Positions 3,700 through 63,518 of a stretch of DNA of 64,000 nucleotides are shown here, one piece after another. The notes beneath the pieces are model-generated. The model was given only the letters and a program-made list of their open reading frames with translations. It was not told the origin of the DNA and searched no databases. Position 1 is the stretch's first letter; each line of letters begins with the position of its first letter. This stretch comes from Chondrosia reniformis (Eukaryota; Porifera; Demospongiae; Chondrillida; Chondrillidae), in assembly GCA_947172415.1 (NCBI GenBank), contig OX359189.1, positions 10,058,501 to 10,122,500 on the forward strand. Reading direction: 5' to 3'. A program made the translations under genes and the position numbers.

Positions 3700-5586
3700 A
3701 TGATTTGTCTGTACGTCGTAATCTTTCTTTTTGGATCATTTCGCAATAATCTGTGTGAAAGTAAGTCATATCGCAACGTTTGGACATACACCACCACCTT
3801 CTAGACATGCGATGATACACGCGCTAGGGCCTTTCAGCTAATACAAGTTAAATTTCTCTGTTATAAAGGTCAGGCCAGTTTTCTTTACTATCCGAGTGAC
3901 AATGTAGCCACATTGGAAGGAGGCAGTCTCACGTTTACTTGTGTAGCAGTAAATATAACATCCAATGGAACTAGACTGCATGTAAAGTGGTACTTGAACA
4001 TTAGCAGTACAGAGACAAGCATTACCACTACCTCTAACAAGACCCTATCAGATGGTACCATGACAACATTTGGAGGTGAATACCGTTCTCCTCTCACTTT
4101 GTCTAACATAACTAGAGTTTGGAATGGAGCTACTGTACATTGTGCTGCTAATGCAGGCTCAGAATCAGTGGATCAGGATCAGCCAGAACCCTTTCCTGTA
4201 ATATCTGTGTTGTGTGAGTTACTGCAGAATATTGTGTATAAGTTATGCTACAATTATAGTTGAAGTAATATATCAACTTGAATATAGGTTAATATATATA
4301 ACATTTGTATAGACTCACTTGCAGTATAAAGTTATATAGATCATGTGTGTTTGTTTGTTATAACATCCGAAATGCTCTAATGTTAGTAGTTTTATTGTGC
4401 ATGGCAGTGATAATTGGTGCCTAATTAAACTTTTTGGTGGCTAAAAGTATGTAATTATATATAAGCTGTATAATTAATATTGATGTGTGTTCATATATAG
4501 TTCCTCCATCCATCACTCCACCCATCACAAACGAGACTGCTATAGAAGGAACATCCTTCACTACTTCTCTAACTATAACTGGTAATCCATTTCCAGTGAG
4601 TAGTGATATTGTTATAACTAAAGATGGAGTTACTGTACAAGATGGCAGGATTACTGTTAATATTGGATCTGGTAATGGAACATCTAACTTTACAATAGAT
4701 AATGTTAATCGTACTGACAGTGGATCTTACACAATAAATGTGACTACTACAGTAAATGTGACTACTACAGCAGGAAGTGATTCAGCTGTTGTCAACTTGG
4801 ATGTGTACTGTGAGTTAGTATTCTTTGTATTCTATATTAAAAGTATACAATACATTTTCTTATATTTTGCTAGATGTCCCAGAATTTGCTGTACACTCTA
4901 AAGTGCAGAATGTTGTTTTTACAGAAGTATTCACATTCAACTGTACTCCATCAGCTGCCAACCCTCCACCTAGTAGTTATGTGTTTGAGAGAGATGGAGT
5001 GAACATCACAGAAGGAGTGATTGGATCCATCTTAACTGTCTCTTCTCTGAAGAGAAGTGAAGATAGTGGAAACTACACTTGTATGGTGACTAATAAAGCA
5101 GGGAGTGTTACCATAGCAACATACTTGAATGTGTTAGGTGAGTTTACTGAGGTGATGCAGAAATAACAATGTTAATCGATTAATATAATTCCATCTCATT
5201 TACCATGTAAGTTTATTAATGTGTTAATTTGGTAGATCGTTCTTCTCAATTAAATATTAATGACTTTATTTTATAGATGGTCATTATACATGTATATGTA
5301 TACAGCTAATTCCAATCATGTGTCTGAAGATACAACACTAACTATCATTGGAGCTATTGTAGGAGTGATTGTAGTAATTCTCCTCCTCATCTTAATGATA
5401 CTGATTATTGTACTTTGTTACCTCCGGAGGAGGAAGAATGGTTAGTGCAACTTCCATTGCAATCTGATATTGTTATATAATTAGAATATTGAGTATATGA
5501 CATCTTTACACATGCAACATCTTTTCATACACAGAATTGAAAAAGGAGTAAGTAGAATAAAGCTAATGAAGAAATGAGAAAAGAAT

Positions 5587-5629
<43 letters not shown>

Positions 5630-6690
5630 TGATTAAATAAGCTTGCCTTTAAACCTTTATAGGAATTTGGTTTACTTTCCCAACTCTTTAAAAGTGCATC
5701 ATCAGCAGTGGCAGTGAACATTCATACATACAGATTCACACAAACAAGCTTCTCTCAATATTCACTCTCACAGAACTACTCTCTTTTAACCCTTCAGTAA
5801 TGATGATTTCACAACTGAAAGCAAGCAGCAGCCGATAGAGTCAATGTATGCAGTATCAATGTACGCTGATGTGATACGTGATAGAAAGTCACTCATTATA
5901 CTCTTACAGAACTATTCTCTTTTAACCCTTCAGTAATGATGATGTTCATTTCACAACTGAAAGCAAGCAGCAGCCGATAGAGTCAATGTATGCAGTATCA
6001 ATGTACGCTGATGTGATACGTGACAGAAAGTCCGACACAACCAGAGAGGTGAACAGTTGCATTACGAGTAGTCATAGCAACTGAATGTGTTCTTCATACA
6101 TACGTACACTTCAAATTCATACAGTATTTTCAAAATATATAATACTTGTGAATGATGTCTTTATAATTATTATTATGTATATAACAAAAAACTATTTATT
6201 TTTATTGTTATTACTTATCTTATATTATTATACAAATTATGGAAATGGAATACACAATTATGTTTCTAAGTTTACAAATAATCACGGTGTCTCATAAGTA
6301 TAGTATATAGCCTTAGTATTGTAGTTCAGTGAATGTGTGCATATATATACGTAACCACATGTTCATTAGTAGATACCTATATACTGCATGTAGGTGGAGG
6401 TACTGTACATCTCATATTCACCATGATATTATATATAATGAAATTGCCTGAAGTGGATTTCTCCCATTCTTTGTACTTTCCTTTATTGTGTCCTCAGTTA
6501 TCTAATTATATGTTATCTAAGTAGCAGCTTACACACTTTCACACTAGTACTGTATACATATATATATTTGTACATTTAGGAAATATTGAGTGCAGATTTG
6601 AAATTTCCAGAAGAAGATCAAAGAAGAAGAAAGCCTCCGGTAGAGATTCAACCAGTTATATACACTAAAGTACAAAAGGTCAAAAAATAA
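3700..6690 (+). CDS. Receptor A: signal peptide-Ig-Ig-Ig-TM-ITIM tail
   Basis: Predicted exons: 3700-3760 (signal peptide MICLYVVIFLFGSF), 3869-4213 (V-like Ig with LTFTCVAV, VKWYLN, VHCAAN), 4501-4809 (cysteine-less Ig), 4874-5137 (I-set Ig, FTFNCTPSAANPP and DSGNYTC), 5306-5440 (TM IIGAIVGVIVVILLLILMIL then RRRK), 5535-5547 (13-nt micro-exon), and tail 5934-6084 (stop TGA). This gives about 425 aa. All internal Ig and TM exons are phase 1-1 with GTGAGT or GTTAGT donors. No FN3 exons remain, although a short relic of an FN3 3' border is visible near 5195-5215. An alternative tail may splice from 6048 to exon 6580-6690 (stop TAA). The tail has one intact ITIM (SMYADV); the other motifs are damaged. 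Likely a plasma-membrane receptor with inhibitory-type signalling; ligand unknown. Confidence 0.72.
5590..5628. repeat. (GA)n microsatellite in the receptor A tail intron
   Basis: A pure GA run in the intron between the 13-nt micro-exon and the tail exon. The same run, at different lengths, sits in the equivalent intron of genes B (about 44446-44476), L (about 47650-47683) and C (about 53402-53426). Confidence 0.9.
5798..5933 (+). pseudogene. Duplicated first copy of the receptor A tail exon
   Basis: A near-identical copy of the following tail exon, with its own acceptor (ccttcag at 5791-5797). If used, it encodes ESMYAVSMYADVIRDRKS and then runs through the former intron border to a stop TAA at 5934-5936, where the second exon begins. 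It is therefore either an alternative short tail of 45 codons or a non-functional duplicate. Confidence 0.6.
6580..6690 (+). CDS. Alternative 3' tail exon of receptor A (second ITIM exon)
   Basis: Phase-0 exon after acceptor tacatttag, 37 codons ending in TAA. It encodes ILSADLKFPEEDQ then VEIQPVIYTKV. The homologous exons of genes B and C read ILYADL, so here the first ITIM tyrosine has become serine while VIYTKV (VxYxxV) remains. It would be reached from a GT inside the main tail exon (after 6048, GAG|GTGAAC), the same position used as a regular donor in gene E (after 21923). Confidence 0.6.
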   Translation, partial: EILSADLKFPEEDQRRRKPPVEIQPVIYTKVQKVKK

Positions 6691-8005: not shown

Positions 8006-8883
8006 ATGAATGGTGTTGTAACATATTATCTCTACATCTGGCAACATCAGCATAGGAACTGGTCAGATGAAGCTGCAGTCAAACAAGTGTTTAGTCAGTC
8101 TGTTACCAACTGATCGAAGCGTATTATATAAGAGTATTAGGCATATTTCTGTAGGTATACCCAAGAAAGCTTGCTTGTACGTATATATGAAATATGCAGA
8201 ATTTACTGTACATATAAATACAAATTCTAGTTGTTCATTTGTTGAAGATCATGAATATCAACTGAAACTTAAAGTAACAATTCAACTTTATAGAATGTGT
8301 TTGTGATATACTAAATACGTACATACATAAATGCATAGGATTTGTGAATGATGTCCATTATTCCTGACCTTTCATTTTTTTATCAATTCAGTTCCATATA
8401 CACACCACATCTCATTATAATATTAACAATATATGCAGTAGAACACTAGCAAAGTATTTCTGATTGTATATATACGTAGATGACCTCAGTTAATGTAATA
8501 TTTAAGTAGCCACTTTTACTAGTTATTTACCATCATAGTGGAGTGACTGTAGGAATATATAGATGAACGATATTCATAACTTTATCCCTTCTCAGACAGA
8601 TATCTTAACATGTTTCTTTTGCAAGTCAGGGAAGTTTTGTTAGTTACGAAGTCAGCTCTAATCTACTTAGTATCTTTGTTGGCATTCAATATTTGAACCC
8701 TATATACTAACAAAATGACATCCTCATGCAGCATGTTTTATGTAGGGTAGTAGCAGTAGTACTATATACATATGACTGTGTGCTGATCATCAAATCAGCA
8801 GCTCCATTGGGTATACTCATGGACATCAGTAAGTTTTGAGCTTCATGAACGTCGCAACATCATTTAACAAGAGTAAAATACTT
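8006..8883. other. Intergenic, no gene seen
   Basis: AT-rich. The part from about 8460 to 8760 is repeated with changes at about 12525-12830 and again in part near 15420-15620. No coding evidence. Confidence 0.5.
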
Positions 8884-8970
8884 GATTGACTTGATCCTTC
8901 TCTAGTACAGTTAAAAGATAGCCTTTTTCCTCTAAGTACATTTACCTCACCACTTGGAGATATCAACTGA
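8884..8970 (-). pseudogene. Relic of an N-terminal Ig exon
   Basis: On the minus strand this short stretch reads ISPSGEVNVLRGKRLSFNCT, the start of the same Ig type seen at 3069-3340 and in receptors D, E and F. The remainder of the domain is absent and no splice-bounded exon can be drawn. Confidence 0.5.
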
Positions 8971-9128
8971 CATAGGGTATCTATATAGAAGATCATTTAA
9001 GCTTCAGCTACTGTGAACAATGTCAGAATAGCTATGCAATACCTTCTGCCAGTAGAATGGGCAAGAGACAATACTGCATCATCTGTTGGTATCCTTTTAC
9101 TTATGGAATCTTATGGATTTAGGATACG

Positions 9129-11420: not shown

Positions 11421-13836
11421 CAGTTAAAGTATCTATTAAAGTATTAAAGCCTATAGTAGTCACAGATATGTAGGTCCTGTTACATAAGTACATACTCACA
11501 TTACACCTTTACATACAACAAATTAATGTTTGTTTCTTCCTGGAGAAACTGCCTGATCTTAATTATCAATACACTTGGAAATGCTGTACACAATTTGTTG
11601 ATGTATACTACACTAGAGCTGTATGTGAATAACTCTCCCCTAGCAACTAAATTTACAAGCTTAAGTTCATCCTGAGGTAGTAGCGGTAGTTCAGTACGAA
11701 TCGCCATCAGAGATCAAAGGAAGCCATCTTCTCAACTGACCGACAGTCGGGTTTAATTGCGAAACGACGCCATCTTGGAAAAGGTCAGTTTGCTCTGCAC
11801 AGGAAGTACGAGGAGTTAGACATGTACTATTAGATATGCAGTACACATTCATTATCTTCTAATGGTCTAGTCCCCCAAATCCAAAGAAAATCAATAGCTA
11901 TTCATCTTCCAATACCTTCCACCTGTTCATTGTCCTCACTGTAGGAATGGTGGAAGCATTGTCAGCTCTTAAAGTATACCTTTGAGATTAAGAAAAGTTT
12001 GATAAAAATTAAAATTGCTCTATTTCTCACCATGTCTTGTTACAAAATAAGTTTGTGTCCAAAAATGAACAGCTGTCAATATTTCTGCATTTCATAACTT
12101 TAAAGATAAATGTAAAAATTTTCTTTCTATAAGAATATATAGTGAAGATGTAGGGATGGCGCAAACATACAGAAACAATTACAAGAAAGGATGTTACACA
12201 ATGAAGCATTAGTTGTGTAAGGGAACAAGGACATGATTCATTTACTGGACGAAGATCTCTAGTGCTTAGTCAAGCACAATGAGTTGTGATCAGCAACTTC
12301 TGATAATACCCACGGAATACAATTTGTGCGCATGTTTAGATAGCAATTCAAAATATGCATACTAATGTAGAATCATTTAATGTAATATTTATTCTACGTA
12401 TGGCCAGGTATGTGTACATATGAGAATTATATGAACATTTAGATTATGGTAATACTTTCATTATGCAGAGATATTTACCAGCATAGTGGACCAGAGTGAC
12501 TGTAGGAATGTACGTATATATAGATGACCTCAGTTAATATTTAAGTAGCCACTTTTACTAGTTATTTACCAGCATAGTGGAGTGACTGTAGGAATAGGTG
12601 AACGATATTCATAACTTTATCCTTTATCAGGAAGATATTTTTTTGCAAGTCATGGAAGTTTTGTTAGTTATGAAGTCAGCTCTAATCTACTTAGTATCTT
12701 TGTTGGCATTCAATATTTGAACCCTATATACTAACAAAATGACATCCTCATGCAGCATATATGATGTTTTATGTATTATAGTAGTAGCAGTAGTACTGTA
12801 TACATATTGTGCTGATCATGAGTATACAAGAATGATAAAAAAATCTAATTATATAGTCCACAACATTTGCCTCATATTTCAGAGTAGATGGATTATTTAA
12901 TGCTAAAATTTGTCAATTATCCAAGCAGGTGTCACAATACAAGTATTTGGTATATGATGATGTTATTTTCTATGTATCAACAAAGTTTTCTATAAAGTCT
13001 TACCTCAGGTACTCGTACAAAAATAAAATTAAACACTATTCATGTCAAGACAATCAAATTGCACAACACTTTGGGAATTCCCCCAACAAGATTAATGCAC
13101 ATAGATAAAAAAGGTGTTAGGTAATAAGTTTGCATAGAAATCTGTGTGGCAACCAAAACATTACAACAGGCGACATTACTGTAAATAAACAATGAATCTA
13201 ATTTTCTGGTTTCCAGCCTTCAGGGTTTATTTATTTTTAACTTTATAATTGAATAGTTAAACTGAGGTATAATTGAATAAGCCTTCTCTAGCTCTGAACG
13301 TGTTGCTTAACCACATAGAAAAGGGCAGTAGAACAGTCTTATGAAAGTTAATTGTACTGAGCAGTGCAATTAGTAACTCCCTTATATATATGCAAATTCT
13401 TGATGACATTACATGACATTGTAATCTATTCAGCTAAAATATGTATATGTGGAAGTTCAGTTTCAGAAAAATAAAAAAAATGGAAAATAAATTCTTTTGG
13501 CTAACTGTTACCACAGTTAGACTACATGATCTAATGTATAAAGTTGATCACTGAAAGCAACAGTGGCACACACCAAGCTGCATGCACAGTAGAAGCACTG
13601 TTCATCTGCTTTTCTAAAGATTTATACAGAGACAATAGTAGTAAGGAATTATATGCGTATTATTGATAAACTATATACAATTTATCATGAAGTGGCATTC
13701 TAGGTTGGCTATGTCAAAACATTAGTAATGATCTATTGTGAATCATTAGGTTGGAATCGAGCGAATCATCTCTACAATTTATCACTTTTTTTACTTAGTT
13801 TATATCTTATACTAGTAATCATGTATATTATCTGAC
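11421..13836. repeat. Left copy of a tandem duplication of about 2-2.5 kb
   Basis: From about 11600 to the Ig exon at 13837-14154, this segment is repeated with small indels at about 14405-16587. An identical 60-aa open frame appears in both copies (12027-12209 and 14973-15155, minus strand). It has no domain, and its preservation is explained by the recent duplication. I see no gene in the non-exonic part. Confidence 0.7.
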
Positions 13837-14154
13837 CATTCACAATCAACATAGGAAAAGGTTGTGGCTGATTCGCTATCTCTCCATTGTTCACAACACA
13901 TCTAATTATAGTCCCATTCCAAAATGTTGTAATGTTTGACAGAGTGAGAGGAGAACGATAATCACTTCCTACTGTAGCCACCATTCCATCTGGAAATGTT
14001 CTGTTACTACCAAGGGCATATTCTCCACCATTTTCCAGGAACCAAAGCAGTTGGACTCTAGCTTGATCAAGCAAAGCAACACAAGAGAATAGGTATTCCC
14101 CTCCTTCTGATACAGTTACATTCCCTTTAGGATATTCAGTAAACTGGACATTAC
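13837..14154 (-). CDS. Single V-like Ig exon (M, copy 1)
   Basis: A phase 1-1 exon of 106 codons, with acceptor cattcattag at its high end and donor GTCAGA at its low end. It encodes one V-like Ig domain: EYLFSCVAL (first Cys), LLWFLE (core Trp), YRSPLTLSNIT, IIRCVVN (second Cys), ending PQPFPMLIVN. It is the same domain type as the first Ig of receptors A, B and C. No signal-peptide exon lies immediately upstream, unlike the copy at 16588-17100. It could be an internal exon of a longer M gene running from 17100 downwards, or a stranded duplicate. Confidence 0.6.
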
Positions 14155-16587
14155 CTAATGAATGTATACAGAAATAACACTCCAATATATAGCTACAGCC
14201 TAACCCTATATTATTTTGGACCAACCTATGCTTGTAACCATTCGTTGTACAACAAAAATCTTTCAAAAGCCATTGAACACTTTTTAATTAAAAGCTGGTT
14301 TCAAATTGGTTATTAACTTCTTGCTTTGATTCTTTTTCAATATTTTTACTGTCTACAGTCCAATTAATGTTTAATGAAAGTTTCATCTGGTAATTCTTTC
14401 ATGCGCTATATACTACACTAGAGCTGTATGTGAATAACTCTCCCCTATTTATTCCAGCCATAAAATTACCATCTGCTGCCATTATCATTCAGCAATGGGC
14501 AAAGGAATGAGTTGTTGTTCCAGTAATTTTCAGGAGTGATTGACTTAACAGTCCCAGTGCGTTAACAGGCTATATGCCATGCATACTAACCTTTGTAATA
14601 ACATCTCTATTGTCAGCAACTAAATTTACGTCATCCTGAGGTAGTAGCGGTAGGTCAGTACGAATCCTGACCGGTAGTCGGGTTTAATTGCGAAACGACG
14701 CCATCTTGGAAAAGGTCAGTTTGCTCTGCACAGGAAGTACGAGGAGTTAGACATGTACTATTAGATATGCAGTACACATTCATTATCTTCTGATGGTCTA
14801 ACCCCCCAAATCCAAAGAAAATCTATAGCTATTCATCTTCCAATACCTTCCACCTGTTCATTGTCCTCACTGTAGGAAGTTGCTAGTCCATCAGCAGACA
14901 ATGGTGGAAGTGCTCTTAAAGTATACCTTTGAGATTAGGAAAGTTTGATAGAAATTAAAATTGCTCTATTTCTCACCATGTCTTGTTACAAAATAAGTTT
15001 GTGTCCAAAAATGAACAGCTGTCAATATTTCTGCATTTCATAACTTTAAAGATAAATGTAAAAATTTTCTTTCTATAAGAATATATAGTGAAGATGTAGG
15101 GATGGCGCAAACATACAGAAACAATTACAAGAAAGGATGTTACACAATGAAGCATTAGTTGTGTAAGGGAACAAGGACATGATTCATTTACTGGACGAAG
15201 ATCTCTAGTGCTTAGTCAAGCACAATGAGTTGTGATCAGCAACTTCTGATAGTACCCACGGGAATAAAATTTGTGCGCATGTTTAGATAGCAATTCATAA
15301 TATGCATACTAATGTAGAATCATTTAATGTAATATTTATTCTATGTATGGCCAGGTATGCATACATATGAGAATTATATGAACATTTAACACTTTCATTA
15401 TGCATAGTTATTTACCAGCATAGTGGAGTGACTGTAGGAATAGGTGAACAATATTCATAACTTTATCCTTTCTCAGGCAGATATCAAAACTGTTTTTGCA
15501 AGTCATGGAAGTTTTGTTAGTTATCATAATTGGTGACAAGCCAGCTCTAATCTATTTTGTATCTTAGCCAGCATTCAAAATTTGAACCCTATATACTAAC
15601 AAAATGACATTCTCATGCAGCATATATATAATGATGTTATTTTCTATGTATTAACAAAGTTTTCTATAAAGTCTTACCTCAGGTACTGGTACAAAAATAA
15701 AATTAAACACTATTCATGTCAGGACAATCAAATTGCACAGCACTTTGGGAATTCCCCCAACAAGATTAATGCACATAGATAAAAAGGTGTTAGGTAATAA
15801 GTTTGCATAGAAAGCTGTGTGGCAACCAAAACATTACAACAGGCGACATTACTGTAAATAAACAAATAAACAATGAATCTAATTTTCTGGTTTCCAGCCT
15901 TCAGGGTTTATTTCTTAACTTTAATTTTGAATAGTTAAACTGAGGTATAATTGAATAAGCCTTCCCTAGCTCTGAAAGTGTTGCTTGACCAGTAGAACCC
16001 TAATTGTTGATTCTAGAGAGGCATTCTTGCATATTCTTCTTATTTTGCACACACAGGGACACTGACTGAGTTAGATATTTGGTTCATCTGTCCTTCAGTC
16101 TTATGAAAGTTAATTGTACTGAGCAGTGCAATTAGTAACTCCCTTATATATATGCAAATTCTTGATGACATTACATGACATTGTAATCTATTCAGCTAAA
16201 ATATGTATACGTAGAAGTTTAGTTTCAAAAAAATGGAGAATAAACTCATATGGCTAACTGTTATCACCTACTAGACTACAAGATCTGATGTATAAAGTTG
16301 ATCACTGAAAGCAACAGTGGCACACACCAAGCTGCATGCACAGTAGAAGCACTGTTCATCTGCTTTTCTAAAGATTTATACAGAGACAATAGTAGTAATG
16401 AATTATATGCGTATTATTGATAAACTATATACAATTTATCACAAAGTGGCATTCTAGGTTGGCTATGTCAAAACATTAGTAATGATCTATTGTGAATCAT
16501 TAGGTTGGAATCGAGCAAATCATCTCTACAATTTATCACTTTTTTACTTAGTTTATATCTTATACTAGTAATCATGTATATACTGAC
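14155..16587. repeat. Right copy of the 2-2.5 kb tandem duplication
   Basis: Repeats 11600-13836 with scattered substitutions and indels, including the stretch at 14690-15330 (copy of 11750-12370). An insertion of about 100 bp near 15995-16095 is specific to this copy. No independent gene seen. Confidence 0.7.
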
Positions 16588-17100
16588 CATTCACAATCAA
16601 CATAGGAAAAGGTTGTGGTTGATTCACTATCTCTCCATTGTTCACAACACATCTAATTACAGTCCCATTCCAAAATGTTGTAATGTTTGACAGAGTGAGA
16701 GGAGAACGATAATCACTTCCTACTGTAGCCACCATTCCATCTGGAAATGTTCTGTTACTACCAAGGGCATATTCTCCACCATTTTCCAGGAACCAAAGCA
16801 GTTGGACTCTAGCTTGATCAAGCAAAGCAACACAAGAGAATAGGTATTCCTCTCCTTCTGATACAGTTACATTCCCTTTAGGATATTCAGTAAACTGGAC
16901 ATTACCTAATGAATGTATACAGAAATAACACTCCAATATATAGCTACAGCTGAATATTATATTATATGGTGGATTGGTTTATAAATTCTCGATCCTTTTA
17001 CTGTCTACAGCTGTCATTCCTAATCTTACATTTTACAATACTCACCTGTGGAAGCATGGCATAACATAATTAGAAATAATTCTGCAAAAATGGTATACAT
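16588..17100 (-). CDS. Signal peptide plus V-like Ig (M, copy 2, 5' end)
   Basis: Exon 1 (17100-17046) starts at an ATG and encodes MYTIFAELFLIMLCHAST, a signal peptide ending in phase 1 with donor GTGAGT. Exon 2 (16905-16588, 106 codons) encodes the same V-like Ig as copy 1, differing at a few residues (EGEEYL, TVIRCVVN, EIVNQ). No TM or tail exon follows before the next Ig copy at 14154. The simplest model joins 17100, 16588, 14154, 13837 and possibly the hydrophobic end at 9837; phases agree at every junction. Likely secreted or GPI-anchored; ligand unknown. Confidence 0.6.
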
Positions 17101-18310: not shown

Positions 18311-18358
18311 AACCGATGTATGGCGTTATAGATTGCTTATATATGTTCAAATTAACAG

Positions 18359-29520: not shown

Positions 29521-29599
29521 CTGAAGAATCAAAATATAATATCATAGATCAGTGATATGGAAAAGACATGATATAATATTAAACCTTCCAAAGAGTTAT

Positions 29600-44439: not shown

Positions 44440-44477
<38 letters not shown>

Positions 44478-46158: not shown

Positions 46159-46159
46159 A

Positions 46160-47644: not shown

Positions 47645-47685
<41 letters not shown>

Positions 47686-49330: not shown

Positions 49331-49560
49331 ATGAAAAATCTAAGATACCATTTTCCTACATGCTATATGCCTATTCTGTAAAAAGCCTATAGGTGAATTA
49401 AACCTGAAGAGAGCTTTTAGATGAGGTTACAGGAGTCTTTTCTTCCTTCTTTTCCCTTCTTTCATCTTCTTCTCCACTGGGTCAGACAGCCGTCATCAGT
49501 GATCCTGGGAGTCTTTGTCTTTTCTTTATCTTGATCTTCTGTGAATCCTTGGCAATCAAA
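49331..49560. repeat. Dispersed repeat (copy 2)
   Basis: Shares 'gaaaaatctaagataccatt' and 'cctgaagagagctt' blocks with 50053-50190, and the 'cttctccactggg' block with 28960-29190. It lies in a receptor K intron. Possibly an old interspersed element. Confidence 0.55.
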
Positions 49561-50052
49561 ACATCAACAGATAATCCATTCGATATTTAAAGGTATTTTA
49601 CTTAAACAAACTTACATGGTAAATGAGTCACACTTAATTCCAACTGAAATGGAGTACTCTCCCCAACACTGTTCATATATAGCACTCACATTAATGTTAT
49701 AAGTCTCTCCAATAGTTAATATATCTACTAACATGACACTGTAAGATCTCAGATGAGCTGAAAGATAGGTCATGTTGAAACTATAGTTTCCTCCAGAAAT
49801 CTCCACCTGTCAACATTTTAGGAACATTTACATCAACAAAATTAATTATAATTTTTATTATTAATTTTTTCCTTAACTGAAATTTCTGCTAACAAATTGT
49901 TATACTAACTTGCAGTAAAATTATCCACATTCTGTCCTCCATCAGTCAGTAGTACAACATCTAGCTACTGATAGAATAATCAGTAAAGTGCTTCAACTGA
50001 TACACTCTCAATAATAGGAACTACATAACAGACAAATACTCTTATACCTCAC

Positions 50053-50790: not shown

Positions 50791-51350
50791 TCAGAGTAAA
50801 AGTAATTGCACAAACATGACCAATGGAAGTAATACACTATAAGATAAGCACCACTGGATGCCAGCTGAACCTGCAGGTGAGAAGTATATTTAAATATCTG
50901 ACAATTACACAGCTAGTGATTATAATCCTTTCTTTCTTAATTTAGTGAATCCCAATAAACTGATCATTGCACTAGATGTCCATAGCATATTTGTGGTTTT
51001 AGTGTTTACCTAAGTGTATTTCGAGGTAATGCTATATGTTTCTAGCCGCTATATATATATATAGCTTACCGCTATTGAGAATTATGTCGACCGTAAATAC
51101 ATCTCCTCCATGTAAATCAAATCTACATCTCAATTTACTGCCATCGTGATCCATCTTTACTGGCCCAAAAGTGTATGAAACTCCGTTTACTATCCGAGTT
51201 GCACTAATAAGCTTGGTATCAGTAATGTCTTCATTATTTAGCTGAGGAAATATGTCTTCCTGTATCGAACCATTTCTAGTACAGTTAAATACAAGCTCGC
51301 TTCCACTGGAGTATTGACTCTTCCACTTGGAGATATCTCTTGTGCCAAGA
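50791..51350 (-). pseudogene. GPI-like single-Ig gene N (one-base frameshift)
   Basis: Two minus-strand exons. 51350-51070 is an Ig domain ending DIILNS with donor GTAAGC; 50870-50791 (phase 1) reads GSAGIQWCLSYSV then LLPLVMFVQLLLL and stops, a hydrophobic C-terminus without a basic tail, as in GPI-anchored proteins. The Ig exon is one base short of a multiple of three (281 nt) because a C is missing near 51302 compared with 3294, so the frame is broken near its start. No signal-peptide exon found. Head-to-head with receptor C. Confidence 0.55.
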
Positions 51351-51703
51351 CTTTATATTATGAAATATTTATGCAGTGTTATATAAATTATCATCTCAGT
51401 ATAAACCACATTTTGAATATATATGTCTATATATCTGATTCTGTATTCTAATAATACTTATTATGCTAATACGGATCCGAATAATTAAGTATCTCTACAT
51501 ACTAATGTAGAACCTCTCTTCACCACAAGTCGCACAACGTCCTGGTAAAGGGATATGAATATCATTGGAATTCACACTCTCATTCAAATTGGCAACGGAA
51601 AAAATTGCGAGTCAGATGTAACGTTTTTACCTAGCAGCTATATATTATACTGCACGTGAACTTATATTATTTAACGTTTCTTCACACTATCAAGGAAGAA
51701 GTT

Positions 51704-54700
51704 ATGATTTGGCTGTACGTCGTGATCTTTCTTTTTGGATCATTTTGCAATAATCTTTGTGAAAGTAAGTCATATCGCAACGTTTGGAAATACACCACCA
51801 CCTTCTAGACATACGATGATACACGCGCTAGGGCCTTTCAGCTAATACAAGTTAATTTCTCTGTTACTAAGGTCAGGCCAATTTTACTGACTATCCAAGT
51901 GGCAATGTAACTACATTGGAAGGAGGCAATCTCATGTTTACTTGTGCAGTAACATCAGAAGAGAGCCTGAATGTAAAGTGGTACTTGAACACTAGCAGTA
52001 CAGAAATACTTATTAACATTAACAAGACCCTATCAGATGGTACCATGGCAACATTTGGTAGTGACTACCGTTCTCCTCTCACTTTGTCTAACATAAACAG
52101 AGTTTGGAATGGAGCTACTGTACATTGTGCTGTTAAAACACACATAGTAATAGATCAGCCAGAACCCTTTCCTGTAATATCAGTATGGTGTGAGTTACTG
52201 CAGACTATTGTGAATAAGTTATGCTACAATTATATTATAAGTGAAGTAATATATTAACTTGAATACAGGGTAAAAGTATGTACTTATAGGCATGGCTTTA
52301 TATTGATGTGTGTTCATATATAGTTCCTCCATCCATCACTCCACCCATCACAAACGAGACTGCTATAGAAGGAACATCCTTCACTACTCCTCTAACTACA
52401 ACTGGTAATCCATTTCCAGTGAGTAGTAATATTGTTATAACTAAAGATGGAGTTACTGTACAAGATGGCAGGATTACTGTTAATATTGGATCTGGTAATG
52501 GAACATCTAGCTTTACAATAGAAAATGTTAATCGTACTGACAGTGGATCTTACACAGTAAATGTGACTACTACAGTAAATGTGACTACTTCATCAAGAAG
52601 TGATACAGCCGTTGTCAACTTGGCTGTGTACTGTGAGTTAGTATTCTTTGTATTCTATATTAAAAGTATACAATACATTTTCTTATATTTTGATAGATGT
52701 TCCAGAATTTGCTGTACACTCTAAAGTGCAGAATGTTGTTTTTACAGAAGTATTCACATTCAACTGTACTCCATCAGCTGCCAACCCTCCTCCTAGTAGT
52801 TATGTGTTTGAGAGAGATGGAGTGAACATCACAGAAGGAGTGAGTGGATCCATCTTAACTGTCTCTTCTCTTAATAGAAGTGAAGATAGTGGAAACTACA
52901 CTTGTACAGTGACTAATAAAGCAGGAAGTGTTACCATAGCAACATACTTAAACATTTTGGGTGAGTTGATTGAGGTGATGCAGAAATAACAATGTTAATC
53001 AATTAATATAATTCCATCTCATACAATACATCTTGTAAATTTATTAATGTGTTAATTTAGTAGAATATTCTTCTCAATTAAAAATTAATGGTCATTATAC
53101 ATGTATATGTATACAGCTAATTCCGATCATGTGTCTGAAGATACAACACTAACTATCATTGGAGCTATTGTAGGAGTGATTGTAATAGTTCTCCTCTTCA
53201 TCTTAATGATACTGATTATTGTACTTTGTTACCTCAGGAGGAGGAAGAATGGTTAGTGCAACTTCCATTGCAATCTTATATTGTTATACAATTAGAATAT
53301 TGATTCTATGACATCTTTACACTTGCAACATCTTTTCATACACAGAATTGAAAAAGGAGTAAGTAGAATAAAGTTAATGAAGAAATGAGAAAAGAATTAT
53401 CAGAGAGAGAGAGAGAGAGAGAGAGGAGTGATTAAATAAGCTTGCCTTCAAACCTATATAGGAATTTGTTTTACTTTCCCAAATCCTTAAAAGTGCATCA
53501 TCAGCAGTGGCAGTGAACATTCTTACATACAGTATCACACAAACAAGCTTCTCTCAATATTCACTCTTAAAGAACTACTCTCTCTTAACCCTTCAGTAAT
53601 GATGATGTTCATTTCACAACTGAAAGCGAGCAGCAGCCAATAGAGTCAATGTATGCAGTAGTTATTCGTGATCGGCCAACTGAACCAAATGGAAACTCAA
53701 ACAGTGACAACCAGCTCAATGAGGCGAAGAGAACTAAACCAGTTGAGTCAATGTACACTGATGTGATACGTGACAGAAAGTCCAACACAACCAGAGAGGT
53801 GAACAGTTGCATTACGAGTAGTCATAGCAACTGAATGTGTTCTATATGAGGTGATCTGTACCAGTTTCGGTCTATCAAATAAACTGTACGTATATACTAA
53901 TGTACTCACTCCTAATTGTGCTAATGTTCGTACATATTAGTATGTATAATGTAGCTAATACTGTATGTTAATGGATGTCATAAATTTCATTATACTGTAT
54001 CCATACCAAATAACTAACTCTATTACTAGTACATTCTACTCACTTAAGTGGTATGTCAGTCGATCTCTGTAGTTATAGGTGGTATAGGTATATCCTGTAT
54101 GTCCATATATGGTCACATTCCCTCTTGTTTATTATCTCTGCTATATCCTTGAGACTCTCAAATAGCAGAACTTGTAGTAGATAGCCACTACTTGTGCATG
54201 TCTCAGTTTATCATCCTCTCCAACAGTCCTTCTTCTTTGAATACTTGTCTTCCATATAAGGCATACAGAGACAAAGTATACACTACACATGTGAGCTCTT
54301 CAGTCTCCTCTTTATATATCAAGTGTAGAGGGTATCCCTTTATATATCAAGTGTAGAGGGTATCCCTTTATATATCAAGTGTAGAGTGTATCCCTTTATA
54401 TATCAAGTGTAGAGGGTATCCCTTTATATATCAAGTGTAGAGGGTATCCCTTTATAGATCAAGTGTAGAGGGTATCCCTTTATATATCAAGTGTAGAGGG
54501 TATCCCTTTATATATCGAGTGTAGAGGGTATCCCTTTATAATAATAATAATAATGATTTTTATTAATGTGACATGCTATTCTGAAAAAAAGATCAGTCAG
54601 AAATAGCCCAACCCATGGTGGGTTTACAAGTCACTAGCAGGGGGTATACATTTCCAGGGCCATGCAGGGAGGGTGTATGTATTACAAAACCTTTATGGAA

Positions 54701-56773
54701 CAAAAATTAGTGAGAATGAGTGAGAGATTTACGATGAATGTACATACTGTAAATATAATTTGAGATCTTTTGATTTGGGTATGTTAGGATGAAGTGGTTT
54801 TTTTGGATACTTGGGTAAGAGTAGAAGTTAGGGGATAAAAGTGAGCATTCAGCAAAAAGATTACATCTTATATGATTGAAAGCTGGACAGGTTGTAATAA
54901 AATGAGTGGAGTCCTCTATTGCACCACAGTTACACAGCTGGCAAATCCTGCTCTCCAGATCAACCTTAGGGTGTCTCAATCTGCCCTTCTCAATTTCGAG
55001 AGGGAGGCACCCACACCTCAGGGCTGCCAGGACTCTCCTTTTATCAAAATTACCAGTCCTTATATAGTCATCAGTTGAGGGCGTTCTCTTAATGAGCCTG
55101 TAGTCAGCTAACCTGCCCCCAGATCTACTATTTTTGTCTATAGTGTCTAGTCTTAAGGTCCAATCTTGTAAGGCTAATTTATTTATAAGTTGCATTGTAT
55201 AACTGAGGAAGTGTGATCTATCATACATGATGGTGTTCATGAAATTACTGGGGTTAGAAATAGCAGGATAAGGAGCATCATTGGGGGTAATTAATTTAGA
55301 GATTACATCCATAACATTGCTATACCATGTATCTTTGAGGTTAAGTTTGGCTAAAAACAATAATACCTTCTTGGGCATGCATTTAATAGGGAGATCACAA
55401 ACGTGATGCCAGAATTTAATGGTGGTAAATTTAGTATGCCAGTGTAATGGCTTCCAGTTTAGTTCACCCATGAGTCCGACAAGAGGAGCAGTCTTACCAA
55501 GGCCTATAAATGATCTCATGACATTGTTTTGTACCAATTCAAGGGCCTGATATTCTTTTGCACCCCAGACATGTGAGCTATAACTAATTATACTTAGGAC
55601 TAGTGTTCGGTATAGATGACTAAAGACATTATAATGGAAGTTACCATACGCTCTAGATTTAGCTGTTAAGAGGTTGGCAGCTTTGGAGGCTTTCTTGGAA
55701 ATTAATGCAATGGAATTGCTCCAGGTTAAATGTTCATTTAGTGATAAACCTAAGTAATTATAATCTTTGGTGTATTCTATGTGAGAGGAGCCTATATGAA
55801 ATTTGAACTGTGATAGTTTGTGTTGAGTCGGGCGGAAATGAATCACCTTAGTCTTATTGGTGTTAATTTGGAGTTGCCATTTAGCACACCAAACATGAAG
55901 TATATCTAGTAGACGTTGTAAATCATTTACTGATTCGGCACAGGTTGCAATATCATCTGCATAGAGAAGGCAACTTAATTTATCATTATATATATTGAGG
56001 CCAAGCTGGCACTTTTTGAGGTCTATGGCTAAGTCATTAATGTAAATATTGAAAAGTGTAGGGGAGAGGGGGCATCCTTGTTTTACACCCCGATCTACCT
56101 TAAAGTATTCTGTAAAGGTATCGTTAAGCTTTATTGTGTAGTGGACATTAGAGTACATACTTTGAATAACCTTAAGTAATTTGCCTCAAGTGTAGAGGGT
56201 ATCCCTTTATATATCAAGTGTAGAGGGTATCCCTTTATATATCGAGTGTAGAGGGTATCCCTTTATATATCAAGTGTAGAGGGTATCCCTTTATATATCG
56301 AGTGTAGAGGGTATCCCTTTATATATCGAGTGTAGAGGGTATCCCTATATATATCAAGTGTAGAGGGTGGTGGTGGCGCTAGCTTACTTCTTGTTTAATA
56401 TATTTCACTTCATAATGGGGTAAACCCTGTCAGCTAGTTTAATAATTAACACCTGCTTGGTGTGAACACAAATTTATATACATATACGTACATGTATATA
56501 TGGACCATTCTCTGTATCCTTTATTGTGCAATATCACTTGTTATCTCTCCTCACTTATCTATGTATGTTATCTAATTAGATGTTCACTTATCTCATATTA
56601 TCTAAGTGGTAGGGTGGTTAACACACTTTCACACTAGTAGTACTGTATATGTATTTTACATATATTTGTACATTTAGGGGATATTGTATGCAGATTTGAA
56701 ATTTCCAGAAGAAGATCAAAGAAGAAGAAAGCCTCCGGTAGAGATTCAACCAGTTATATACACTGAAATATAA
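51704..56773 (+). CDS. Receptor C: signal peptide-Ig-Ig-Ig-TM-ITIM tail (complete)
   Basis: Exons: 51704-51764 (MIWLYVVIFLFGSFCN), 51872-52189 (V-like Ig, LMFTCAVT, VKWYLN, VHCAVK), 52324-52632 (cysteine-less Ig), 52697-52960 (I-set Ig), 53117-53251 (TM, GVIVIVLLFILMILIIVL then RRRK), 53346-53358 (13-nt micro-exon) and 53597-53834 (tail, stop TGA), about 445 aa. Alternative end: from 53798 (GAG|GTGAAC) to 56678-56773 (stop TAA), about 465 aa. Motifs are SMYAVV, SMYTDV and, in the alternative exon, ILYADL and VIYTEI, all ITIM-type. Both FN3 domains are absent. The alternative exon lies beyond a 28-bp minisatellite with an inserted LINE. Best-preserved type 1 receptor in the window. Confidence 0.78.
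54310..54541. repeat. 28-bp minisatellite, left part
   Basis: About eight units of the same repeat as at 45357-45690, broken off within a unit after 'ctttata'. The array continues at 56186 beyond the LINE. Confidence 0.93.
54542..56185 (-). mobile_element. 5'-truncated non-LTR retrotransposon (LINE)
   Basis: On the minus strand an open frame (from the truncated edge to 54707) encodes the C-terminal part of a reverse transcriptase: GVKQGCPLSPTLFN, then LLYADDIA (the catalytic YADD), the thumb region, and a terminal CxxC...HF...C cluster (CQLCNCGAIEDSTHF) common in Jockey/I-type LINEs. Endonuclease and the N-terminal RT motifs are absent, so the element is truncated at its 5' end near 56185. 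The 3' end at 54542 finishes in a short (ATT)n-type tail. No long target duplication is visible, but insertion into a tandem repeat makes it hard to judge. It lies in the receptor C alternative-tail intron. Confidence 0.85.
56186..56368. repeat. 28-bp minisatellite, right part
   Basis: About six and a half units in register with the left part at 54310-54541, confirming that the LINE inserted into an existing array. Confidence 0.93.
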
Positions 56774-57224
56774 AAGGTCAAAAAATAGACTTGATCATTT
56801 CATCCCTTTTAACTGATTTACTTTAGTAAACTCATTTATGAGTATTGTATATTTATTTGTTCATACATTCACATGTCATGTAAATTAGATATAGAATCTA
56901 AATGGATATGTAATGCACTGAAAACATTCAAATAGCAGTACTTGTAGTAGATAGCCACTACTTGTGCAAGTGTTTGGTCAGTCTGTTAGCTAGGTTACCA
57001 ACTGAAGAATATTAGGCTTAGTCATTTACATATTACATAAATATATGTAAGTACACTTCAAATTCATACAGTATTTTCAAAATATATAATACTTGTGAAT
57101 GATGTCTTTATAATTATTATTATGTATATAACAAAAAACTATTTTTATTGTTATTACTTATCTTATATTATTATACAAATTATGGAAATGGAATACACAA
57201 TTATATATGTTTCATTTAGTTTAC
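56774..57224. other. Intergenic, no gene seen
   Basis: A flank shared with 6691-6900, 46160-46330 and 48360-48660, then sequence homologous to 34100-34330. Confidence 0.45.
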
Positions 57225-57370
57225 AAATGTCTATGTGCTCAGTGTCAGCCATTTTGTTCTCAATTACTTCAGAAGGCACAGCATAGGCAGGATTACACAA
57301 CATATCAATTTGTTTCATCTCAATCTCTATTTATATGAAACATGCTGTGAAGTGCAATCAGTAGGAACAT
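57225..57370 (-). pseudogene. Broken orphan type 2 tail exon (copy of H)
   Basis: Reads DVPTDCTSQHVSYK and then TAG, owing to a small insertion replacing the codons of the ITIM (VSYEEI in H). The C-terminal part is also deleted and shifted near 57235. The paralogue at 34338-34504 is open. Confidence 0.7.
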
Positions 57371-59210
57371 CTAAAAATATAAAATGTACTTCTGTATAGG
57401 AAGACAGTTATAGCTATAATGTCATTGAGTCTCATTGCTACGTATAGTAACTATTAGATTCCCAATGTTTGAGTATTAACAGGAAAATTAATAATAACAA
57501 TAGCAGAATGTTTATTTATACACTTTCTTCTGGTAAGTTTCTCACTGATCACTATATTTAAACATTCTGCATTGTTATTGTTATTGTTATTACTAATAAT
57601 ATAATTATACTAAACACTCACCCAACACATTCAAGTGTTGCAAGAGAGAAAGTATCAAAACAAGACAGTGACCTTGAGAGACTCTTTCCTGATCCTAGTT
57701 ATAAATAAAGGTGATCATTGCAGCAAGTTAAGGTTGCTATACCTATCTTCACATGTAGTATAGAGCACTGTAATTCTTATAACTTATAAGGGATGATAAA
57801 ATTAACATTTTAACAAGAATACATTGTAACCCACAAAGAAGTTGCTATTCAATTAGTGTATGCTCAGACACAAATCTTTCCAAAACATGTTATTGCATCA
57901 ACCACTGTCATGTGCTGTTACAATGAAGCAGTTGGACAGAAAGTTTCAATGATAATTATAATCTACAAAGCCTATACTAGTACAGTAGTTACAGATAGGT
58001 CCTGTTAAAAGGACATGAAGTACTGTACACATATTACATCACCTTTACATACTGCACAACAATGTTTGTTTCTTCATGTACATCCATTAATATTGACTTT
58101 GGAGAAACTGCCTGATCTCGATCAGGATCAGCTGACTAGGTGAAGATACCACTTTGACTTACATGTGTAAAGTTTGTTCTACAAGTGAGAGCCACATGAA
58201 CAACTGATTGCTTTATTTCCATTTGATGGTTGCCAGGGAACTGCACCTGGTTGCTATGGAGACTTTCTATTATTAGAAATAATAATAATATATTTTTAGG
58301 TAGAGAAGTAAACAAGATGTACAATGTAAGCACATTTAGACAATTGCTTATTTACACCTCTGATGGTCAGCACTGTAACCACTCCCCCAAATGAGTATAG
58401 CCATAGCTACTAGGAGCTGGAAGGGGACCTAAACCAGTTGGACAAATTTAGTGTTCTTTGAACTGTCTAGTTACCATGGATACTCAAGAAGATTAAAAAC
58501 AAGTAGATTATCTAAGTAGCTACAGAAACAAGAAAGATTTTGAATAGTTTCACAATTTACCTACTAACTATAACTAAGCCAATAAACTTTAATAATCTTG
58601 TGCAAAGGAATTGTACAGTTTCATAGCCAAATGCAAGGTAAACTGATCTACAGGATACAGAGAACCTGATAAGCATGTACTACACACCTCCTCCAACTGA
58701 ACTATGGTAGCTTGGAGTTACTAGTTACTAGGGACTGGTAGAGATGCTAATCTAGTAGTCCCATTGGACAAATGTAACCCAGGTCCTTTACAATTGTTAT
58801 ACTCACTGCTGATTCCATGTAAATTTCCCCTTGATCCAATACCTTCTTTCACTATCTTTCCAACCTGGATATTGGTGTAGTCAATAACTTTAATAATCTC
58901 CCACCACTCAGTCCTTCTGCTTGCTTAATTGGACATGTTGCTAGGTAACTGACATGTGATTTCCATGACAATTCTTCTGCAGATAAAGCAAATAAAGTAT
59001 AGGCTGCACAATAAGCCATATACGTGTGTAATCAAATAAATTACATTTTGAGCAGTCTCACAAGTTAATATTATTACTGACGTAAAGATGCTGATTAATA
59101 TGCTAATCGTGTAACTTAAAAGAAAAACAAACATCATTTAAAGAGACTATAATTTGTCTGATTCCCTAAACAAGATGACCTACCAATCAGTGAAGTTTAG
59201 GGCATGTACA
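57371..59210. other. Intergenic, duplicate of 34505-36290
   Basis: Near-identical to the first copy with scattered substitutions and small indels. No gene. Confidence 0.6.
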
Positions 59211-60660: not shown

Positions 60661-61149
60661 ATAAATGTATATTGCACAAATGATCATTGATTGTATATAT
60701 AATCCAAGTTGGTGATATTAATAAATCTATATCGTATACTATAGATTCCATCTATAAGCATTCAGTATACTCTTGTAAACTCTTGCATAACAAGCAAAGT
60801 TATAAAATTGTATATACACACAAAGAGCATTGAATCAATATTAAGTGAATGCTGTCAGTGTATATATATTATGCTGAGTAGCCCGACACATATGACACAT
60901 ATTATTCGTGACCATTCATTATTATCAATTTAGTTATATACATACATTATAATAATATCTTCTTTTGAATTATTTAGTTCTTTCAACAACATATACATAA
61001 TACGCAGCAGAACATTACTTTTTCTGATTGATTTTATTGTTATCTCAAAAAGGTTTATTTATATATTATTGATTATTATACAAATTGTGGAATGTTTATA
61101 CTTTTAACTGTAAAATATACACAATTATGTTCAATTCAGTTTGCAAAAA
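60661..61149. other. Intergenic with a deletion relative to 37741-39016
   Basis: The junction at about 60898 joins sequences that lie about 785 bp apart in the first copy. Confidence 0.65.
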
Positions 61150-63518
61150 TCATGGCGTCTTATAAGTAATGTGCTCAGTGTCAGCCATTTTGTTGCCTTG
61201 GTAACCTTTGTTCTCAATTACTTCAGAAGGCACAGCATAGGCAGGATTACACAGCATATCAATTTGTTTCATCTCAATCTCTTCATATGAAATATGCTGT
61301 GAATTACAATCAGTAGGAACATCTAAAAATATAAAATTAGCTCTTTATAGGAATACAATTATACGTAGCTATAAGGTCATTGAGTCTCATTGCTATGTAT
61401 AGTAACTATTAGATTCCAAATTTTCAATTATGAACAGGAAAATTAATAACAATACAGAATATTTATTTATTCACTTAAGTAAGTAAATTTCTCATGATCA
61501 CTAATCATGTGCACTCACTCACTCACTCACTCACTCACTCATTCACATTACATGTACAGCTGATGAAGAACATTCTGTATTATTATTACTAATTTTCCTG
61601 CTGTTAATTCTCCAAAGTTCACAATCTAATGTATAACTGATTATATATCATCATATCATATACGTACGTACATACTAACCACTTTTCTTCTTGTAATAAT
61701 AAAATACAATGATCAGTATAATAGAGATGAGTAGGATGAGTATGAGAATCACTCCTACAATAGCTCCAATGATAGCTAGTGTTGTATCTTCAGACACATG
61801 AATGGAATTAGCTGTATACATATACATGTATAATATGGCCATTTGTAAAATAAAGTCATTAATTTTTAATTGTGAAAAATGTTCTACTAAATTAACACAT
61901 AAATATAATAAACTTACATGATGGTAAATGAGTCACACTTAATTCCAACTGAAATGGAGTACTCTCCCCAACACTGTTCATAGCACTCACATTAATGTTA
62001 TAAATCTCTCTAATAGTCAATGTATCTACTAACATGACACTGTGAGATCTCAGATGAGCCGAAAGAAAGGTCATGTTGAAACTGTAGTTTCCTCCAGCAA
62101 TCTCCACCTGTCAACATGTTAGGAAAATTTACATAAACAAAATTTATTCTTTGTAAAATTAATATTCATATTTTTATATATTTTTATATATTATATATAT
62201 TACATACCTAATTGAAATTCACATTCATTGCCTACATACACTGTACTCACAGTATAGTTAGTAACATTCTGTCCTCCGTCAGTCAGTAGTGCAACATCCA
62301 CTGATAGAATAGTCAGTGAGAGTGCTTCAACTGATACACTCTCAATAATAGGAACTACATAACAGACAAATACTCATATACCTCACTATACACTACATGG
62401 AACTACATCTCACATACCTGAGTCAGGTGTAGTAAAGGTACTGGCTGCTGGAAGACTCACTCCATATTCATTCTCAGCTACTATTTCCACTCCATATAGA
62501 GTGCTGTGTTGAAGGTTAGTCAGTGACAGAGTAGTCACATCTGATGTAGTGAAGGAGAGAATGACAGTGTTGTTTGTTATGTTGATGGAATACTTGAGTG
62601 GTTGATCAGTTCCTCCATTATCAGATGGAGGGCTCCAACTGATAGTAGCTGAGAATGGACTTACATCTTCAAATGTGATATTATGTGGAGCAGAAGGTGG
62701 AGCTATGGAATTATATTAATCGATTTACATTGTTATTTCTATATACATCACTTCAATCAACTCACGCACAATGTTTAAATATGTTGCTATGGTAACACTT
62801 CCTGCTTCATTAGTTACATTACAAGTGTAGTTTCCACTATCTTCACTTCTCTTCAGAGAAGAGACAGTTAAGATGGATCCACTCACTCCTTCTGTTATCT
62901 CCACTCCATCTCTCTCAAACACATAACTAATAGGTGGAGGGTTGGCAGCTGATGGAGTACAGTTGAATGTAAATACTTCTGTAAAAACAACATTCTGCAC
63001 TTTAGAGTGTACAACAAATTCTGGGACATCTATCAATATAGGAAAATATATTGTATACTTTAAATATAGAATACAAAGAATAGTCACTCACAGTACACAT
63101 CCAAGTTGACAACAGCTGTATCACTCCCTGCTGTAGTAGTCACATTTACTGTGTAAGATCCACTGTCAGTACGATTAACATTTTGTGTTTTAAAGCTAGA
63201 TGCTCCATTACCAGATCCAATATTAACAGTAATCCTGCCATCTTGTACAGTAACTGCATCATTAGTTATAATAATATTACTACTTACTGGAAATGGATCA
63301 CCAGTTATAGTTAGAGGAGTAGTAAAGGATGTTCCTTCTATAGCAGTCCTATTTGTGATGCTTGGAGTGATGGATGGAGGAACTATATAATAAAAACACA
63401 GAAGTGTATATAGAAGGGGTATGTCCAAATGACTCACTGATGGTTGTAACGTACTTTGACAAAGATTATTGCGAAATAATCCAAAAAGAAAGATCACGAC
63501 GTACAACAGACAAATCAT
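61150..63518 (-). CDS. Receptor J: signal peptide-Ig-Ig-FN3-FN3-TM-ITIM tail (complete)
   Basis: Exons in transcript order: 63518-63455, 63382-63092, 63029-62766, 62702-62418, 62354-62251 plus 62107-61918, 61811-61680 and 61322-61150 (stop TGA). About 500 aa. It is a recent duplicate of receptor I and every frame is intact. Differences include an extra serine at the end of the second FN3, a regular GTGAGT donor where I has GTGACT, canonical DSGNYTC in the I-set Ig (DSGKYTC in I), and the tail motif ISYEEI in place of VSYEEI; both are ITIMs. NPAYAVPSEV and HITYKTP follow. TM is GVILILILLISIILIIVFYY. Confidence 0.8.

Follow-up and report, generated by a model that had tools for sequence, protein, structure and literature searches.

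Inverted receptor pairs share heads and differ in tails

We analysed 64,000 nucleotides of chromosome 1 of the demosponge Chondrosia reniformis (hereafter the window; contig C1:10058501-10122500), which hold a cluster of genes for type I receptors of the immunoglobulin superfamily (IgSF). The main result is that shared head exons occur with either of two classes of tail: class I, with tyrosines in the form of immunoreceptor tyrosine-based inhibitory motifs (ITIM), and class N, with YE(E/D) and NPxY motifs. This arrangement of near-identical inverted heads with two tails was absent from an earlier note on the same DNA. The anatomy of the genes, their tail classes and shared head exons are resolved from the sequence, as are the conserved tyrosines and the SHP2-type genes described below. 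The explanation developed here, to which we give a probability of about 0.6, is a large, fast-evolving demosponge family of type I IgSF/FN3 receptors, part of which would form paired receptors with ITIM-form or YE(E/D)/NPxY tails.

The map was extended to 170 kb (C1:10,050,001-10,220,000) and hits were grouped by hand into 27 units, 13 of class I and 14 of class N; three of these (a1d, n1d and G1d) lie in a repeat of at least 16.9 kb whose two copies are 99.86% identical. In this map, several class I and class N genes adjoin in inverted orientation, with similar heads and unrelated tails. Four inverted pairs combine shared heads with unrelated tails (G2/M1, b, g and d), b and g being mutually related copies. 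The head exons of G2 and M1 (IgV, Ig2, Ig3 and FN3) were 91.6-96.9% identical, while the next FN3 exon was 49.3% and the transmembrane (TM) exon 40.5% identical. With identity falling from 97% to 49% from one exon to the next, a simple whole-gene duplication is disfavoured. Head exon identity was 96.9-100% in bP/bM, 95.7-96.6% in gP/gM and 95.6-97.9% in dM/dP (TM 80.3%). It was 93.5-97.5% in cM/cP, except for IgN (77.8%), with the TM at 79.5%; for n1/a1, the values were 87.1% (IgN) and 93.9% (FN3).

The similarity spanned introns. G2 and M1 matched over one block of 1630 bp (92.0%), bP and bM over 2008 bp (96.6%, plus an overlapping 83-bp match upstream), gP and gM over 2100 bp (89.8%), and dM and dP over 2542 bp (91.3%); cM and cP matched in blocks of 1791 bp (88.6%) and 267 bp (78.3%). 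No other matching block of at least 80 bp was found between the members of these five pairs. The likeness of the introns indicates that blocks of DNA were copied, by conversion, exchange or inverted duplication, which are not distinguishable here.

Receptor units and exon models

Exons were mapped by searching seeds from window open reading frames (ORFs) against all window ORFs of at least 20 amino acids (aa), with IgN, IgV, Ig2, Ig3, FN3, TM and tail as exon types. Nine units in the window unite heads, TM and tail (G1, G2, G3 and G5 on the plus strand and M1-M5 on the minus strand); they are related type I receptor units built from Ig, FN3, TM and tail exons in varying sets. Beyond these, the window holds two fragments (G4 and M6), five head exons that stand alone, two isolated tail exons and, at 29.8 kb, the remnant of a tail exon. 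The units and fragments are as follows (SP, signal-peptide-like exon).

3700..6690, plus strand: G1, class I; SP-IgN-Ig2-Ig3-TM-tail; SMYAVS and SMYADV in a partly duplicated tail exon; last exon ILSADL...VIYTKV, with the first ITIM tyrosine gone
18310..22339, plus strand: G2, class I; IgV-Ig2-Ig3-FN3-FN3-TM-tail; SMYAET; last exon GVLYANL...VEYYEV; convergent with M1
22589..25738, minus strand: M1, class N; SP-IgV-Ig2-Ig3-FN3-FN3-TM-tail; VLYEEC and NLSY; convergent with G2
27167..29548, minus strand: M2, class N, without N-terminal exons; Ig3-FN3-FN3-TM-tail; VSYKEI and NPAY
30203..32281, minus strand: M3, class N; SP-IgV-FN3-FN3-TM-tail; VTYEEC and NPSY; no Ig2 and only a remnant of Ig3; TM placed by eye
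39017..41368, minus strand: M4, class N; SP-Ig2-Ig3-FN3-FN3-TM-tail; 506-aa model open from Met to stop; VSYEEI, NPAYAVP and ITYETP
43335..46158, plus strand: G3, class I, single Ig; SP-IgN-TM-tail; SMYAVV, SMYADV, ILYADL and VIYTKV
47057..48083, plus strand: G4, class I fragment; FN3 (second half)-TM-tail exon; SMYAVV and SMYANV; tail-exon donor lost, no last exon found downstream
48703..49800, minus strand: M6, class N fragment; FN3 (second half, broken)-TM-tail
51704..56773, plus strand: G5, class I; SP-IgN-Ig2-Ig3-TM-tail; SMYAVV, SMYTDV, ILYADL and VIYTEI
61150..63518, minus strand: M5, class N; SP-Ig2-Ig3-FN3-FN3-TM-tail; open from Met to stop; ISYEEI, NPAYAVP and ITYKTP

Exons were chained into GT-AG models, in which domain junctions were nearly all in phase 1, with phase 0 within the second FN3. 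The splice between the tail A exon and the last exon was in phase 0 (read by eye, then checked). In the 170-kb map, the donor GAGAG/GTGAAC (slash at the exon border) was present in eight of nine tail A exons, the exception being G4, where GT is lost; the acceptor TTTAG/G preceded all nine plus-strand last exons. Some joins were read by eye where the automatic solver fell short (tail A donor, spurious signal-peptide pieces and junction stops). A signal-peptide-like exon was read from the sequence in G1, G3, G5, M1 and M3, and M4 and M5 gave complete type I models; exon mapping and splice modelling did not identify a signal-peptide exon for G2. Outside the window, cM, dM and cP chain through open exons over their modelled extent.

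Pfam Ig families scored above the gathering cut-off in all three spliced models scanned (M4, G5 and M1), and fn3 in two of them, G5 having no FN3. SIT (PF15330) was matched in G5 below the family cut-off (E 0.0024). A kinase receptor was considered and rejected: modelled tails reach stop codons, and the Pfam scan of the three models gave no kinase. Geodia sponges have Ig-domain receptor tyrosine kinases; unlike these, the window models lack a kinase domain and stop soon after the TM.

Much of the earlier note was thus borne out. It had described related receptor genes and fragments on both strands, and Ig, FN3, TM and tail exons extend from 3.1 to 63.6 kb as nine units plus fragments. Heads vary in Ig and FN3 number as it had claimed, from one Ig in G3, through three Ig in G1 and G5 and two Ig with two FN3 in M4 and M5, to three Ig with two FN3 in M1 and G2. 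The six motifs that it quoted (SMYAVV, SMYADV, ILYADL, VIYTKV, VSYEEI and VLYANL) all lie within open frames, and the profile search that it had suggested returned the Ig and fn3 matches given above. It had also proposed a variable, duplicating IgSF cluster of an early animal, in agreement with the self-comparison of the window, where duplications form a mosaic; M4 and M5, for example, sit in 3.1-kb blocks of 96.8% mutual identity.

Two units carry insertions or duplications of their own. The G1 tail exon contains a 142-bp tandem duplication (window 5764-6032), giving two shortened SMYA exons, and short matches to this exon were numerous at C1:9.689-9.702 Mb. The last intron of G5 holds a 492-aa reverse-transcriptase frame (54707-56185, minus strand; RVT_1, E 7.5e-22), flanked on both sides by a 28-bp satellite (54310-54540 and 56186-56368) that also occurs in the corresponding G3 intron (45357-45690).

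ITIM-form tyrosines are dense in class I tails

The class I members of the window (G1, G2, G3 and G5) have SMYA or SMYT motifs plus a last exon of the form (I/V)LYA(D/N)LxFP...V(I/E)Y(T/Y)xV; related copies beyond the window have ITYAEL...VEYYEV. The two last-exon tyrosines were 24 (G3), 25 (dP) or 26 (G2 and bM) residues apart, and both motifs of this exon were retained across three class I subfamilies. Seven tails were taken from the 13 mapped class I units (a1, G4, a1d, G1d, fM and gM were excluded as copies or fragments). All seven carried two to four tyrosines of the ITIM form S/I/V/L-x-Y-x-x-I/V/L, and 20 of their 29 tyrosines had it (shuffled mean 1.4; 0 of 2000 shuffles reached 20). 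In all six-frame window ORFs of at least 20 aa, 461 of 5162 tyrosines (9%) had the same form, so that a single motif is cheap here. A lone ITIM-form motif means little in this AT-rich window; the density in class I tails does. The ratio of nonsynonymous to synonymous differences per site (pN/pS) was 0.45 in motif columns vs. 0.90 in the rest of the last exon (three subfamilies, 9 exons, 20 pairs, 12 motif columns; few sites and no significance test).

Class N tails conserve YE(E/D) and NPxY

The class N members of the window (M1-M5) follow the pattern YE(E/D)x(E)MK...NPxYAVPS. We aligned 25 of 40 class N tail rows, from C1, C4 and C10 (15 broken, shortened or close-copy rows were excluded). 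Two tyrosines, one lysine and one asparagine were invariant in all 25, and the proline of NPxY and the following valine, proline and serine were each present in 24; M1 has NLSY. Tails of bP, fP and gP, added later, read VDYELK...NPSYD. The +3 residue after the first class N tyrosine varies (cysteine in 13 of 25), which indicates that the class N tail is not generally an ITIM; VSYEEI, as it stands in the window, is particular to close copies. ITIM-form tyrosines made up 5 of 27 in eight class N tails (of the 14 units), with a shuffled mean of 1.1 and 7 of 2000 shuffles reaching 5. Src-type SH2 domains favour YEEI, and NPxY is suited to PTB binding or to endocytosis.

The claim of the earlier note that tails nearly always have the ITIM form therefore fails for class N, given the 5 of 27 tyrosines and the variable +3 residue. 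Its reading of the tails as inhibitory in type holds in form for class I, with the motif ratios above and the SHP2-type genes below, and not as a general claim, as class N has YE(E/D) and NPxY instead. Conservation of the ITIM form beyond recent duplication was likewise suggested by class I motif codons (a difference unscored for significance) and not by class N, where this form is confined to close copies.

Selection on heads and tails

Pooled pN/pS was obtained from the copies of the 170-kb map, excluding three near-identical duplicates and pairs with pS above 0.6. In heads it was 1.09 for IgN, 1.31 for Ig2, 0.47 for IgV, 0.63 for Ig3, and 0.74 and 0.85 for FN3. In the remaining exons it was 0.68 (TM), 0.70 (tail A), 0.73 (last exon) and 0.68 (class N tail). 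From these ratios, IgN and Ig2 appear to be relaxed or diversifying.

Relatives in the genome and SHP2-type genes

Family searches (82 SH2 exon matches; PTP count from 150 of 531 candidates scored) located SH2, SH2 and PTP exons in this order, twice in tandem, at C3:9.106-9.117 Mb (loci L045 and L046; C3:9105501-9117500). L046 exons carry FLVR, WPDHGVP and SAGIGRTG, and L045 exons FLVR and SAGIGRTG. The joined SH2 region of L046 matched PTPN11 (SHP2) chains with E 6e-78 and PTPN6 with 1e-65. A long acidic open stretch, coding or not, adjoins the L046 PTP exons. Seven PTB-domain exon matches were found in the genome. Dense arrays of PTP-domain exons at C6:0.6-2.1 Mb (plus FN3 exons) and C13:1.65-1.96 Mb suggest expansions of receptor phosphatases.

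Tail A and last exons were found on C1 and C4, and class N tails on C1, C4 and C10, with weaker matches elsewhere. IgN occurs on C1, C3, C4, C6, C7 and C9, and IgV on C1, C4, C5, C9 and C10. Among the best 7999 candidates from 5.8 billion proteins, the 506-aa M4 model had five weak matches, to Ig/FN3 only; the bM tail region had no match in a protein-database search, and the class I tail and last exon had no relative in a PDB search. The best PDB matches of IgV were LILRB1 (E 0.004) and PD-1 (0.05), and that of IgN an antibody light chain (0.01), all too weak for homology. A search of viral contigs with an Ig exon gave no relative. No orthology to a vertebrate paired-receptor family was found: head and whole-protein matches were to generic Ig/FN3 only.

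Comparison with known receptor systems

The members of a receptor pair resemble each other in the ligand-binding region and signal in opposite directions, and classical activating members combine a charged TM residue with an adaptor bearing an immunoreceptor tyrosine-based activation motif (ITAM), as outlined in PMC3533184. Like the vertebrate SIRP, LILR, PILR and KIR described there, the sponge genes are clustered and encode type I IgSF receptors with similar ectodomains and with ITIM-form tails in one class, and the genome encodes a SHP2-type phosphatase. Unlike them, the sponge receptors have FN3 domains and no orthology was found; no ITAM partner was identified, none having been searched for. 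The Arg or Lys that marks activating members was also lacking: 19 of 20 aligned sponge TMs have no charged residue in the hydrophobic stretch, n1 with a Lys being the exception. The closest precedent is SIGLEC11/SIGLEC16 of primates, nearby IgSF genes with inhibitory and activating members whose very similar ectodomain exons are, as PMC5701461 presents them, kept alike by gene conversion and under relaxed constraint. The sponge differs in having several pairs, in which the second member has its own YE(E/D)/NPxY tail; a sequence relationship to the SIGLEC genes was not detected.

Among invertebrates, the FcoR genes of the Botryllus fuhc locus, as portrayed in PMC12065747, likewise form a large IgSF family; the genes are paired, and their long tails contain ITIMs or other tyrosine motifs. 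An FcoR has a sushi domain and its partner is a fester protein, whereas the two members of a sponge pair belong to one family and share head exons. Hydractinia Alr (as cited in PMC12065747) is also an early-animal IgSF locus with ITIM/ITAM-type motifs; its candidacy in allorecognition is backed by studies, while the sponge locus is known from the sequence of one assembled haplotype. The same 2025 review finds no conservation among the candidate allorecognition proteins of sponges, cnidarians and ascidians, and describes ITIM/ITAM-type signalling as a point of convergence for allorecognition from cnidarians to mammals (PMC12065747). No report of a comparable sponge locus was found in searches of an open-licence library. 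The locus is best read as an independently evolved sponge paired-receptor system: it resembles paired receptors in design but, with mostly uncharged TMs and a tyrosine tail of its own in the second class, does not belong to a known family.

Proposed function and alternative explanations

In the explanation that we favour, head exons would be copied between the classes by gene conversion or exon-block exchange of inverted neighbours, with the tails kept distinct. Because head exons are copied, both members of a pair would be expected to bind the same or related ligands. On ligand binding, a tyrosine kinase would phosphorylate the tail. Class I tails would recruit the tandem SH2 domains of the sponge SHP2-type phosphatases and signalling would be damped; on class N tails, different SH2 proteins (Src-type, at YEEI) or PTB proteins (at NPxY) would dock, promoting signalling or uptake. 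The modelled splicing, phosphorylation and recruitment, like the opposite signs of the tails, the ligand and a role in self/non-self recognition, are steps that we infer. A true sponge paired system, in which gene-converted ectodomains are joined either to ITIM tails that SHP2 reads or to self-contained YEEI/NPxY tails with the opposite sign, acting as a recognition and perhaps allorecognition locus of Chondrosia, is possible and is put forward tentatively. That class N is activating is a guess, since only 1 of 20 TMs is charged.

Several further observations weigh against the explanation as a whole. G1 has ILSADL, with the tyrosine lost from the first last-exon motif; cP, outside the window, lacks the first SMYA; and the last exon of gM is split between two frames. 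The tail A donor is weak, and an unspliced tail A would end at its own stop codon with two motifs included. Whole tail exons (0.68-0.73) are no more constrained than the TM (0.68) or Ig3 (0.63), and tail constraint appears at the tyrosine motif positions only, which are few sites. Close relatives beyond the Chondrosia genome were not found in protein-database searches with the M4 model and the bM tail. YxxV/L and NPxY also double as endocytic sorting signals, and ordinary adhesion or sorting receptors, whose tails differ in trafficking (YxxV/L to AP2, NPxY to clathrin adaptors) with no inhibitory signalling, are an alternative that we regard as doubtful. YAVV, YADL and YEEI fit YxxPhi, NPxY is the other classical endocytic signal, and class N retains its tyrosines and NPxY and not the ITIM +3 residue. 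However, the two class I last-exon motifs stand 24-26 residues apart with I/V at -2 and L/V/I at +3 in three subfamilies, a spacing unnecessary for AP2 binding, and the genome has two SHP2-type genes.

The pairing itself could reflect chance adjacency, with heads exchanged among all members, orientation following from block copying and function need not be paired. A rule that the nearest head has the opposite tail was tried and not upheld: it held for 14 of the 21 units with comparable heads, and shuffled labels reached 14 in 15% of trials. By this count, heads are exchanged freely throughout the family except in the inverted pairs. An association of strand with class is present in the 170-kb map (class I 10 plus and 3 minus, class N 3 plus and 11 minus; Fisher p 0.007), yet copies that arose in tandem do not count as independent. 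Both tail classes are also present on C4, class I on the minus strand and class N, with one exception, on the plus strand; shared heads are not shown there, as the two IgV exons nearest the tails were 71% and 95% identical to that of G2. Chance adjacency is nevertheless unlikely, as the head blocks of G2/M1, b, g and d (b and g being related copies) are alike through introns up to a border. It is more improbable still that the locus is a decaying, mostly silent duplication cluster near a chromosome end, a mosaic of pseudogenes whose pairs are functionless by-products of inverted duplication. Fragments and broken exons are many, IgN and Ig2 have pN/pS near or above 1 and a 16.9-kb block is duplicated at 99.86%; against decay, M4 and M5 are open from Met to stop, cM, dM and cP keep open exon chains, two tyrosines, a lysine and an asparagine are invariant in 25 class N tails from three chromosomes, and pN is below pS in the tails.

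If the tentative reading of a true paired system holds, the ITIM-SHP brake would be as old as animals or would have been reinvented on an ancestral SHP2. Should class I work inhibitorily, the on/off receptor logic of vertebrate immune cells would have a counterpart in an early animal branch. The locus would extend the ITIM/ITAM-type logic of allorecognition to Porifera and would name candidate self/non-self genes, with pairs whose second member has a tyrosine tail of its own in place of a charged TM with an adaptor.

Genome setting, repeats and lone exons

The assembly totals 117,379,552 bases in 15 contigs, of which C1 has 10,409,357; the published description of odChoReni1.1 gives 117.37 Mb, 14 chromosomes plus the mitochondrial genome and a chromosome 1 of 10.41 Mb (PMC12181767). 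The window ends approximately 287 kb from the end of C1. The direct repeat of at least 16.9 kb (C1:10050001-10066898 and 10122943-10139835; copies 72.9 kb apart) stems either from a duplication of very recent date or from haplotype sequence retained in the assembly, and window positions 1-8398 fall within its first copy. The lone exons of the window are as follows.

3072..3347, minus strand: IgV-type exon, lone
8829..8996, minus strand: IgV-type fragment
13775..14287, minus strand: IgN-type exon, lone
16568..16978, minus strand: IgN-type exon, lone, in a stretch that repeats 13.3-14.2 kb at 95.5% identity over 882 bp
29790..30005, minus strand: class N tail exon remnant
34341..34526, minus strand: class N tail exon, lone
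51035..51352, minus strand: IgV-type exon, lone
57166..57407, minus strand: class N tail exon, broken (two frames)

A 922-bp inverted repeat (98.4%; window 81-1002 and 1661-2577) had no receptor exons inside it. A minisatellite with a 15-bp unit (37 copies, 96% match; window 7449-8007) is open in several frames and gives spurious ORFs. A tandem repeat of 19 copies of a 34-bp unit (window 32587-33251) separates M3 from the isolated tail exon at 34.3 kb.

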